This document shows positions 12,722-63,905 of a stretch of DNA of 64,000 bases, piece after piece (position 1 is the stretch's first letter; each line of letters starts with the position of its first letter). The DNA is from Hypnocyclicus thermotrophus (GTDB taxonomy: Bacteria > Fusobacteriota > Fusobacteriia > Fusobacteriales > Fusobacteriaceae). The stretch is taken from assembly GCF_004365575.1 (NCBI RefSeq), contig NZ_SOBG01000010.1, forward strand, positions 1 to 64,000, in the 5' to 3' direction. A model generated the notes under the pieces. It worked only from the letters and a program-made list of their open reading frames with translations. It made no database searches and was not told the DNA's origin. A program made the translations under genes and the position numbers.

Positions 12722-12766
12722 AAAAAAAGAGCAGTAACTACTAAAATTAATTAGTAGATACTACTC
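12722..12766 (-). terminator. Attenuator hairpin of the pyrimidine operon
   Basis: In the leader RNA a 16-position stem (arms 12751-12766 and 12729-12744, one U-U mismatch and one G-U pair) with a 6-nt loop is followed by seven U's, all upstream of carA. The stop codon of the leader peptide (12747-12749) is in the loop. A ribosome finishing the leader would cover the 5' arm and stop the terminator from folding, as in E. coli pyrBI attenuation. Confidence 0.8.
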
Positions 12767-12959
12767 CTATATTTATATTTAAATTATTTAATAACAAAAA
12801 CTTTATCAAAAACAATATATTAATATCAAAAATATATTGTTTTAAAAAATTAAATTTTTTAAAAACTTTATATTTCATAAATTTCTTTTTAAAAAAACTT
12901 TTTTTTATTTTCAGTGGTAATATATTAATTTTATTTTTAAATTTTATAAATTTTTTCAT
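12747..12959 (-). CDS. Leader peptide of the pyr operon (70 residues, U-rich coding sequence)
   Basis: A short ORF between the operon promoter and the attenuator. The start at 12959 has a near-perfect GGAGGTGG ribosome site 5 nt upstream; a longer in-frame reading exists but has no such site. The 70-residue product is mostly Lys, Phe, Ile, Asn and Leu with no recognisable domain. Its mRNA is full of runs of U (for example seven U's in the Ser-Phe-Phe region around 12899-12905). The stop codon lies in the loop of the terminator hairpin. This layout matches known pyrBI leaders, where RNA polymerase slowed at U tracts by low UTP is caught up by the ribosome. Function as a peptide is unlikely; it is probably a regulatory ORF. 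Confidence 0.7.
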   Translation of the reverse strand: MKKFIKFKNKINILPLKIKKSFFKKKFMKYKVFKKFNFLKQYIFDINILFLIKFLLLNNLNINIGVVSTN

Positions 12960-12995
12960 AAATACCACCTCCATACTTGAACTCAAATTGTAGAT

Positions 12996-13024
12996 AGTAT
13001 AGCAGAAAAATATTTTTTTGTAAA
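12996..13024 (-). promoter_or_regulatory. Promoter of the pyr operon
   Basis: The -35 TTTACA (13019-13024) and -10 TATACT (12996-13001) are separated by exactly 17 bp. The start site would be about 12989, roughly 30 nt before the leader ATG. Confidence 0.75.
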
Positions 13025-13141: not shown

Positions 13142-15697
13142 ATGAAAAAACTAACTATTTTATTTTTATTTTTAATAATTTCTATTTTGACTTTTACAAA
13201 TAAACTAGATGATTATAAAGTATTTTCTACAAATAATTTTGAAATTTTTTATCCTAAGGATTATGAATACAAAGCTATAAAAGTTGCTTATTTTTTAGAG
13301 AAATATAGAAATAACACAATAAATTTTGTAGGAAAAGAAAATAATGAAAAAATAAAAATAATTATTAACGATGCAGGCACTTATTCAAACGGATATGCAA
13401 ACAGTTTAGATAATAGTATTACTATCTATGCAAATACGCCCTCTACTACAACTGAATTTGGATATATGAATGATTGGGAAAGATTAGTATCTGTACATGA
13501 ATTTACTCACATAGCTCAAATTAATAACATGGATAATAATTATACAATATTAAATAAATTTAATAGTTATATAAAACCAAATATGTTTGTTCCTAATTGG
13601 ATTATAGAAGGAATTGCTGTAATAAATGAATCTAAAATAGATAGATTTGATGGAAGATTAAATACTGGATATTTTGATGCTCTTATAAATGCTAAAGTCA
13701 ATTACAATGATTTTCCAAATTTATTAGAAATGAATTATTATCATGATAGTTTCCCTAGTGGTCAATATTATTTATATGGTTCTAAATTTTTAGATTTCTT
13801 AGAAAAAAAATATGATAGTAAAACTTTAACCTCTTTTTTCGATAAACAAGGTAAAAATTATTTTGCTACTTCTTTTGGAATATTTTTTCCAATGTTTGGA
13901 ATTGATAATAGTGCAAAAAAAAGCTTCGGTAAACCTTTTAAAGATTTATATAATGAATGGAAATTATATGAGTATAAAAATGCACAAAAATATAAATTAA
14001 ATAAAAATAATATTCTAATTAATACAAAAGAAAGTGATAATTATTTTTCTTTAAATCCGTATAAAAAGAAAATATTTTATTTTAAAAGAGAAAAAATATC
14101 GAATGAGCCTTTTGACTATCAAAATAGGTATTTTTTAATAGAATATGATACTATAACAAAAAAAGAAAATATTTTAATCAAATTAAATTCAGCTCCGACT
14201 ACCCAAATGGAAATATATAATAATAAAATATATTTTTCAACTAATGAAATATCAAAAAATTATAAAAATTTTGAAAATAATTCTATTGGCTATAATAAAC
14301 AATTATTTAGTTATGATTTAAATAATAATAAATTAAAAAAATTATACAAAGGTAACTTTAGAGATTTTACAATTTATAATAACAAAATTTTATTATCAAA
14401 AGAAAAAAAAGGAAGTTATGGAAGTGAAATAATTGATATTAATAACAAATTAATATTTTCAACAAATAGATTTATTGATGAAATTTTAATTTATAATAAC
14501 AAATTTTATTTAGTTAATAAAAAAGAGTTTGGAAGCTATAATATATCAATGTTAGATATAAAAAATAATAAATTAATAGATATAATAAACTCTCCTTGGC
14601 ATGAAACAAATATAAAAATTTTTAATAATTTCCTTTATTATACTTCAAATAAGAATTCAAAAATTAATAGTTATCGATATAATTTAAAAAATAAGAGTAT
14701 CGAAATATTATCCAATAATTTATATTCTGCTGAAGGAATAATTTTAGATGATTTTTTGTACTATATTGCTCTTACAAATAATGGTAAAATAATTAATAAA
14801 ATAAATTTTATACCTGATAATAATAAATCTAAAAACACAATAAAATATTTTGAAAATAAAAAAGAAATATCTGTTTTGAACAATATAAATATTTATAAAA
14901 AAAATAAAAATATTAATATAGAAAATAAAAAATATTTATTAAAACCATATTATAATACATTAGGTAATTTAGAACTTGGTACTCAAGATGCTCTCGGAAT
15001 AAATAAATTTTATTTTAAAAGCAACTACTCTTTTGATTATATAAAAGCTATTTATGAAAATAACTATTTCAATTCTACTAAAATTTATCTTAGCAAAATA
15101 ATAGATGATGATAATAGCTTAATATTTACACTAAATTACAATCTATATAAAAATTTAAATAATTTTATTAATAATATAACTCTTGTCTATATTACAGACT
15201 TTAGTTCAAATATTTTAGGTGATACTATTAGTTTAAATAAAAATAAATACGATCTAACTTTAAAAAATTATTTTAATATTACTAATTATGGAAATAAAAA
15301 TACTATTAATTTAAATATAAAAAACAAATATTTTACAAATAAGTTATATTTAAATCATTATTACAATTATAATATTACTAATTATTTTAGAGGATATGGC
15401 AAAATCAATATAGAAACCAATAAAAATAATAATTATTTTAATAGCTTAGATAATGTATTTAAAATATTTAAAATAAGAAATGGTTTATGGAATCCAAATA
15501 TTTTTATTGGTGATATTTACGCTAACCTTTTCTTTGACAATTTATTATTAAATAATAACTCTTATTATAGTTATGGATTTGAATTAATCTCTGAATTAGG
15601 TATGGCAAACTCTTTATTATTAGCTCCTAAAATAGGATGGGCTAAAAATAATGATAATGAAAAAGAGATCTATTTTGGATTTTATGGTGAATTATAA
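13142..15697 (+). CDS. Exported gluzincin metallopeptidase with predicted propeller and outer-membrane barrel
   Basis: This 851-residue protein has a signal peptide (about 1-19), then a small peptidase domain with the zinc motif HEFTH (His119, Glu120, His123) and a probable third ligand Glu156 in WIIEGIAV, the arrangement of the Peptidase_MA/gluzincin clan. Residues about 280-590 are repetitive short strands rich in Asn/Tyr, like a TolB/WD40-type propeller. The last 250 residues alternate polar and aromatic positions and end like a surface-antigen (BamA-type) barrel (SELGMANSLLLAPKIGWA, then an aromatic strand). I infer an outer-membrane-anchored protease facing the periplasm or surface. The peptidase motif is seen directly; the propeller and barrel are inferred from pattern. 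It stands alone, with its own promoter and terminator. Confidence 0.72.
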   Translation: MKKLTILFLFLIISILTFTNKLDDYKVFSTNNFEIFYPKDYEYKAIKVAYFLEKYRNNTINFVGKENNEKIKIIINDAGTYSNGYANSLDNSITIYANTPSTTTEFGYMNDWERLVSVHEFTHIAQINNMDNNYTILNKFNSYIKPNMFVPNWIIEGIAVINESKIDRFDGRLNTGYFDALINAKVNYNDFPNLLEMNYYHDSFPSGQYYLYGSKFLDFLEKKYDSKTLTSFFDKQGKNYFATSFGIFFPMFGIDNSAKKSFGKPFKDLYNEWKLYEYKNAQKYKLNKNNILINTKESDNYFSLNPYKKKIFYFKREKISNEPFDYQNRYFLIEYDTITKKENILIKLNSAPTTQMEIYNNKIYFSTNEISKNYKNFENNSIGYNKQLFSYDLNNNKLKKLYKGNFRDFTIYNNKILLSKEKKGSYGSEIIDINNKLIFSTNRFIDEILIYNNKFYLVNKKEFGSYNISMLDIKNNKLIDIINSPWHETNIKIFNNFLYYTSNKNSKINSYRYNLKNKSIEILSNNLYSAEGIILDDFLYYIALTNNGKIINKINFIPDNNKSKNTIKYFENKKEISVLNNINIYKKNKNINIENKKYLLKPYYNTLGNLELGTQDALGINKFYFKSNYSFDYIKAIYENNYFNSTKIYLSKIIDDDNSLIFTLNYNLYKNLNNFINNITLVYITDFSSNILGDTISLNKNKYDLTLKNYFNITNYGNKNTINLNIKNKYFTNKLYLNHYYNYNITNYFRGYGKINIETNKNNNYFNSLDNVFKIFKIRNGLWNPNIFIGDIYANLFFDNLLLNNNSYYSYGFELISELGMANSLLLAPKIGWAKNNDNEKEIYFGFYGEL

Positions 15698-24933: not shown

Positions 24934-25008
24934 TGGCTGGGCTGGCTGGATTCGAACCAACGCATGTCAGAGTCAAAGTCTGATGCCTTACCGCTTGGCG
25001 ACAGCCCA
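24934..25008 (-). tRNA. tRNA-Gln (anticodon UUG)
   Basis: 75 nt with encoded CCA. The acceptor TGGGCTG pairs with CAGCCCA; the anticodon loop CTTTGAC gives UUG; the T-loop GGTTCGAATCC is normal. Last gene of the Pro-Ala-Gln cluster. Confidence 0.96.
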
Positions 25009-25024
25009 TTAATATATTTTTTTA

Positions 25025-25101
25025 TGGTGGAGCTAAGCGGGATCGAACCGCTGACCCCCACAGTGCAAGTGTGGTGCTCTCCCAAACTGAGCTATAGCCC
25101 C
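25025..25101 (-). tRNA. tRNA-Ala (anticodon UGC)
   Basis: 77 nt with encoded CCA. The acceptor GGGGCTA includes the identity G3-U70 type wobble; the anticodon loop CTTGCAC gives UGC; the T-loop GGTTCGATCCC is normal. Confidence 0.96.
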
Positions 25102-25109
25102 ATTAAAAA

Positions 25110-25186
25110 TGGTCGGAATAGCAGGATTCGAACCTGCGGCCCCCTGCTCCCAAGGCAGGTGCGCTACCGGACTGCGCTATATTCCG
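25110..25186 (-). tRNA. tRNA-Pro (anticodon UGG)
   Basis: 77 nt with encoded CCA. The acceptor CGGAATA pairs with TATTCCG; the anticodon loop CTTGGGA gives UGG; the T-loop GGTTCGAATCC is normal. First gene of the cluster, about 30 nt after the promoter. Confidence 0.96.
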
Positions 25187-63653: not shown

Positions 63654-63728
63654 TGGCTGGGCTGGCTGGATTCGAACCAACGCATGTCAGAGTCAAAGTC
63701 TGATGCCTTACCGCTTGGCGACAGCCCA
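63654..63728 (-). tRNA. tRNA-Gln (anticodon UUG), second copy
   Basis: Identical in sequence to the tRNA at 24934-25008; 75 nt with encoded CCA. Confidence 0.96.
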
Positions 63729-63743
63729 TTAATATATTTTTTA

Positions 63744-63820
63744 TGGTGGAGCTAAGCGGGATCGAACCGCTGACCCCCACAGTGCAAGTGTGGTGCTCTC
63801 CCAAACTGAGCTATAGCCCC
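63744..63820 (-). tRNA. tRNA-Ala (anticodon UGC), second copy
   Basis: Identical to 25025-25101; 77 nt with encoded CCA. Confidence 0.96.
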
Positions 63821-63828
63821 ATTAAAAA

Positions 63829-63905
63829 TGGTCGGAATAGCAGGATTCGAACCTGCGGCCCCCTGCTCCCAAGGCAGGTGCGCTACCGGACTGCGCTATA
63901 TTCCG
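63829..63905 (-). tRNA. tRNA-Pro (anticodon UGG), second copy
   Basis: Identical to 25110-25186; 77 nt with encoded CCA. Confidence 0.96.

Follow-up and report, generated by a model that had tools for sequence, protein, structure and literature searches.

In E. coli pyrBI, the speed of RNA polymerase over a U-rich stretch senses UTP and the ribosome serves as the antiterminator (PMC10135430). E. coli pyrBI and carAB are also controlled by UTP-dependent slippage at initiation (PMC6245113). The E. coli comparison region (NC_000913, labelled L169), which we read directly, carries TATAATGCCGGACAATTTGCC, a 44-codon pyrL, the hairpin AGCCCC...GGGGCT and a T run, so that the E. coli leader is indeed shorter than the 70-codon one described here, as previously stated. 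T makes up 0.34 of the last 80 nt before this hairpin, compared to 0.22 of the pyrBI genes.

An element of similar layout is present in the window, i.e. the whole 64-kb stretch of DNA that was analysed, in which promoter, Shine-Dalgarno sequence (SD), 70-codon leader, terminator hairpin and carA follow each other on the minus strand:

13024-12996, minus strand: promoter TTTACA-17-TATACT, with a predicted start site
12989-12984, minus strand: predicted initially transcribed sequence AATTTG, identical to the E. coli pyrBI start
12972-12965, minus strand: leader SD GGAGGTGG
12959-12747, minus strand: leader ORF from ATG (12959) to TAA (12747), 70 codons plus stop, with counterparts in 12 genera
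12897-12796, minus strand: six T runs of 5-7 inside the leader, the proposed UTP-sensitive pause region
12767-12728, minus strand: intrinsic terminator hairpin, whose loop contains the leader TAA (12749-12747)
12727-12722, minus strand: terminator T tail of six T
12705-11656, minus strand: carA, carbamoyl-phosphate synthase small subunit (family model), with its SD AGGGGG at 12716-12711
11600-8394, minus strand: carB (family model)
8342-7410, minus strand: pyrB, aspartate carbamoyltransferase (family model)
7408-6965, minus strand: pyrI, regulatory subunit (family model)
6955-6191, minus strand: pyrK, dihydroorotate dehydrogenase electron transfer subunit (family model)
6191-5277, minus strand: pyrD (family model)
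5240-4536, minus strand: pyrF (family model)
4428-3241, minus strand: pyrC, dihydroorotase (TIGR00857, above cut-off)
3248-2631, minus strand: pyrE, orotate phosphoribosyltransferase (TIGR00336, above cut-off)

The initial annotation had described a promoter, a leader with a strong SD, U runs and a leader stop codon in a hairpin loop, followed by carA, all of which were located on the minus strand; family models likewise confirmed the complete UMP operon that it had placed behind the leader, with nine genes in the order carA-carB-pyrB-pyrI-pyrK-pyrD-pyrF-pyrC-pyrE. As expected for a pyrBI-type attenuator, an ORF with a good SD lies directly ahead of the terminator, which itself lies between the leader start and the first pyr gene, where a ribosome could cover it. 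Folding of the terminator region (66 nt) yielded -24.9 kcal/mol (z -7.3; 0 of 200 shuffles equally good), with -20.1 kcal/mol for the core stem alone, and the chance of an open frame as long as the window leader was about 3e-4 in dinucleotide shuffles. When both strands of the 64 kb were scanned for SD-led ORFs (25-80 codons) that end within a strong U-tailed hairpin, the pre-carA leader was the single match, and no U-tailed hairpins were detected within the operon from carA to pyrE at the threshold used. The upp gene of this genome is not preceded by a comparable leader, only by what seems to be an ordinary intergenic terminator. Divergent from the pyr promoter, an 851-residue protein with a signal-like start and no Pfam match is encoded at 13142-15697 (plus strand). 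The window further contains two groups of three tRNA genes (24937-25186 and 63657-63905, minus strand) with equal scores and spacing; the second group lies at the end of the contig (64,085 bases), and the pair could represent a repeat or an assembly effect.

We propose that this leader is probably a UTP-sensing, ribosome-coupled attenuator of the E. coli pyrBI kind, controlling the whole UMP operon, in support of the earlier interpretation. RNA polymerase would initiate roughly 30 nt upstream of the leader AUG, with a ribosome loading on the strong SD. With plentiful UTP, polymerase would outrun the ribosome over the U-rich stretch, allowing the hairpin to form and transcription to terminate before carA. 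With scarce UTP, polymerase would pause at the U runs and the ribosome would catch up, translate to the stop codon inside the hairpin and cover the 5' arm, so that transcription could continue into the nine genes. That the leader is translated, that pausing depends on UTP and that control runs in this direction is what we infer from the sequence.

The U content of the leader is central to this proposal. T in runs of at least five accounts for 15.7% of the window leader compared to 1.6% in coding windows across the 64 kb (a fraction of 1e-4 of which reach this value), and overall T for 41% compared to 31% (fraction as high, 0.027); the T content of its last 90 nt reaches the 1% level, and not beyond, relative to all 64-kb coding windows. 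The U-rich stretch lies upstream of the terminator, as in pyrBI-type attenuators. Across 32 genomes, the T fraction of the 80 nt preceding the hairpin ranged from 0.46 to 0.61 versus 0.23-0.32 in the genome's own carA/carB, and in none of them did a reference window reach the T content of the pre-hairpin 80 nt, in a comparison that used overlapping windows and carA/carB only as reference. T climbs from about 0.33 at 100-140 nt before the hairpin to 0.5-0.59 within 80 nt. The preference extends to synonymous sites: Phe TTT:TTC was 81:8 in leaders versus 121:49 in carA (p 2e-4), Ile ATT:ATA was 43:32 versus 81:157 (p 4e-4), and T:A at fourfold sites was 48:40 versus 403:623 (p 0.006). Because U is thus favoured beyond the choice of amino acids, these data point to selection acting on U in the leader RNA. 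Counting against our main reading, the genomes are AT-rich, and U runs are therefore cheap.

This codon choice also bears on two other readings. In classical amino-acid attenuation, the ribosome would stall at starved codons, with Phe as the likeliest candidate, or Arg, since carA feeds arginine synthesis. Phe indeed constitutes 17% of leader residues, 3.9 times its share in carA, but it is unconnected to the pyrimidine pathway, the preference of TTT over TTC would be left unexplained, and the window leader contains no Arg. Moreover, no regulatory run of one amino-acid codon is shared among the leaders, and pairing of the hairpin 5' arm with upstream sequence, as expected for an antiterminator, was not above shuffles in 11 genera. 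Amino-acid attenuation was accordingly rejected on codon choice and the absence of codon runs, and we regard it as extremely improbable. Alternatively, the element could respond to translation capacity or growth rate in general, with termination relieved whenever polymerase slows down compared with the ribosome and without a particular tie to UTP. While the layout would suit any polymerase-ribosome imbalance, the enriched base is U alone, also at synonymous sites, and the element accompanies pyr-type but not arg-type carA, making this reading quite unlikely.

To compare the locus across the family, 61 Fusobacteriaceae genomes with 56 upstream regions of pyr-type carA were sampled; taxa are referred to by working codes (f1 and g1-g14), which are not names. 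The closest named relative by carA is recorded as an Ilyobacter polytropus MAG, and the assignment of the family to Fusobacteriaceae was taken from this record. An SD-led leader ORF and a U-tailed hairpin precede pyr-type carA in 54 of the 56 regions, covering 12 genera (49 from an automatic scan and five from reading the sequences), and a TTGACA-like -35 together with a -10 at the matching position was seen in every genus listed. The conserved leader ORFs span about 32-71 codons and reach into or through the U-tailed hairpin. In the 49 scanned leaders, the distance of the stop codon from the start of the hairpin 5' arm ranges from -4 nt (upstream) to +45 nt (downstream), so that a ribosome at the stop, given the size of its footprint, would cover part of this arm. 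Inspection by eye revealed a leader as elsewhere with an imperfect hairpin in G067, G006 and G073, and a leader running through the hairpin and overlapping the carA start in G050 and in the first copy in G005; read-through leaders also occur in genus g3. Across 11 genera, the product of the chances of the open frames was about 1e-23, with genera taken as independent. Four genomes, G057 (L137/L158), G058 (L136/L157), G060 (L138/L160) and G005 (L025/L155), harbor two pyr-type carA genes; both copies have a leader and a terminator, which differ between them.

Leader ORF, U runs and hairpin hence persist in related genomes while the peptide drifts, as the initial annotation had predicted for the region upstream of carA. 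In the genus comparisons that allowed both values to be computed, dN/dS was 0.16-0.67 for the leader and 0.01-0.09 for carA. A leader value below 1 would be compatible with constraint on the peptide, and selection on U would give the same value. It would also agree with the leader being a functional small, perhaps membrane, protein, with a terminator that merely lowers downstream transcription, as would the Lys-rich start and hydrophobic end of several leaders. However, peptide length and sequence differ among genera, the window leader matched none of the Pfam and NCBIfam models, 12 genera have the stop codon or reading frame positioned within the terminator, and U is preferred at synonymous sites; a small-protein function is for these reasons very improbable. 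The layout is kept without sequence conservation: what persists is an open frame, a hairpin at its end, and U. As far as tested, no structure besides the terminator is kept either, with upstream pairing of the hairpin 5' arm no better than in shuffles, in keeping with a pyrBI-type attenuator, which has no separate antiterminator.

The exception to this pattern is genus g11, whose two examined genomes (G011 and G022) carry the operon's pyr-type carA without leader and without PyrR, a point against the pyrBI-type reading. Absence of the leader in close relatives had been named beforehand as evidence that would contradict the attenuator, and among genera with the operon's carA it was restricted to g11. 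In the carA tree, the pyr-type sequences form one clade (support 100), whose earliest branches belong to genera with a leader and within which g11 has a nested position; the simplest history would thus be a single leader loss in g11. In G011 (L020) and G022 (L015), AGAAGTTTAG or AGAAAGTTTAG is found shortly after the -10. The window's own genus is represented by just one further genome, G001, which lacks a pyr-type carA and is therefore uninformative on leader conservation. No leader-terminator was present at the arg-type carA paralogues examined (G000, G009, G014, G067 and G068).

A conserved PyrR-binding structure, the other finding that had been named as contradicting a pyrBI-type mechanism, was not found by Rfam in the window, and the PyrR protein was absent as well. 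Even with E values of up to 5 allowed, RF00515 (PyrR site) gave no match in the window, while a comparable search finds the clostridial ones, and an Rfam search of the window for riboswitches returned nothing relevant. PyrR was not found in leader-bearing Fusobacteriaceae genomes; in the window genome, the best hits to the PyrR profile reached 51-52 bits against a cut-off of 138, the nearest being two hypoxanthine phosphoribosyltransferases. Within the family, only genus g8, which has no pyr-type carA, exceeded the curated PyrR cut-off. The g8 genomes with PyrR are G008, G020 and G051; in the first two, a Leptotrichia-like carA follows pyrR on the same strand, at a distance of about 2.3-2.5 kb. 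The 5' UTR from predicted start to AUG measures about 23-36 nt in the genera examined, so that neither a PyrR loop nor a typical aptamer would fit, and the sequences listed share no UTR motif besides the SD.

Leader translation might still be gated by a different sensor, such as an unknown protein, a small RNA or a riboswitch, within an otherwise ribosome-coupled attenuator. Such gating has an apparent parallel in clostridial carA leaders, in which a PyrR loop sits at the leader SD and the stop lies in the terminator, and the SD can pair with downstream leader sequence in some genera. In the window, GGUGGUA (12965-12972) is predicted to pair with UACCAC (about 12906-12915) on the minus strand, and g3 keeps a weak SD helix with many G-U pairs. 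SD sequestration as a conserved switch was nevertheless rejected, since the pairing was not above shuffles in most genera tested, a rejection that stops short of g5. Given also the short UTR without shared motif, the lack of an Rfam match and of PyrR, and the U enrichment that it would leave unexplained, gating by another sensor appears unlikely. With PyrR loop, PyrR, UTR room and codon run all missing, polymerase speed over the U-rich stretch is the best candidate for the sensor, and the ribosome for the antiterminator.

In the tree, clostridial carA sequences form clades adjoining the Fusobacteriaceae pyr clade, and their leaders (L041-L062) were compared with those above. In both groups, including many of the clostridial loci, a leader ORF ends in the terminator hairpin before carA, with no clear similarity in leader sequence. 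The clostridial loop-leader-terminator element lies about 60-270 nt before carA. Many clostridial leaders carry GGUCCUGUGAGGCCAGAAAGGGAG or close variants, and loops of this type match RF00515 with scores under the gathering threshold (E 4e-3 and 9e-4); in cold-adapted clostridia the PyrR loop begins with A instead of G. The loop is located directly at the leader SD, with the ORF stopping in the terminator, in L041, L044-L052 and L056, and by sequence also at the leader SD in L053-L055 and L062. PyrR was encoded in 10 of the 11 clostridial genomes searched. In contrast to this PyrR attenuator, in which the loop overlaps the leader SD, the window and the Fusobacteriaceae have neither loop nor protein. 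U runs are weaker in clostridia than in Fusobacteriaceae, with T at 0.36-0.46 and T-run content near reference in most leaders; the dN/dS of the leader ORF was 0.43 in one group, cold-adapted clostridia left out. Clostridial PyrR may therefore prevent translation of the leader instead of working through a B. subtilis-type antiterminator, although an RNA-only antiterminator may also operate in these leaders. As a tentative and somewhat doubtful extension, the two groups could share a common frame, a leader ORF stopping in a terminator, in which the sensor was exchanged: PyrR at the leader SD in clostridia, and UTP-sensitive U-run pausing, convergent with E. coli pyrBI, in Fusobacteriaceae.

Should the proposal hold, Fusobacteriaceae as a family would control pyrimidine synthesis through UTP sensing by transcription-translation coupling, at a great distance from the enterobacteria that served to establish the mechanism, with one switch for the whole pathway including carAB, while neighbouring clostridia apparently run the same layout by PyrR. 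The dozens of drifting leaders would also provide a natural comparative set for the requirements on U runs and spacing. The open-access literature searched contained no earlier report of such an attenuator in Fusobacteria, which does not prove its absence.

Compared to known systems, the window shares a translated leader and a terminator with leader-peptide attenuators of the trp/his type and, unlike these, has no regulatory codon run or detectable antiterminator. With E. coli pyrBI it has in common the promoter, short UTR, SD, leader ORF, T-rich stretch and U-tailed terminator before pyr genes. Both also have AATTTG, the slippage start of pyrBI, at the transcription start (a predicted one in the window), at a distance from the -10 of 6 nt in the window versus 7 nt in E. 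coli; of the 399 promoter-like sites in the window, three, the pyr one included, have AATTTG at that position. G009 has AATTTTGG at the predicted start, and Fusobacterium-like genera have no T run there, so that initiation slippage would be at most a partial second control in the family. While E. coli pyrL extends past the hairpin, the leader in the window stops in its loop, and where the E. coli attenuator precedes pyrBI only, the one described here stands before nine genes including carAB.
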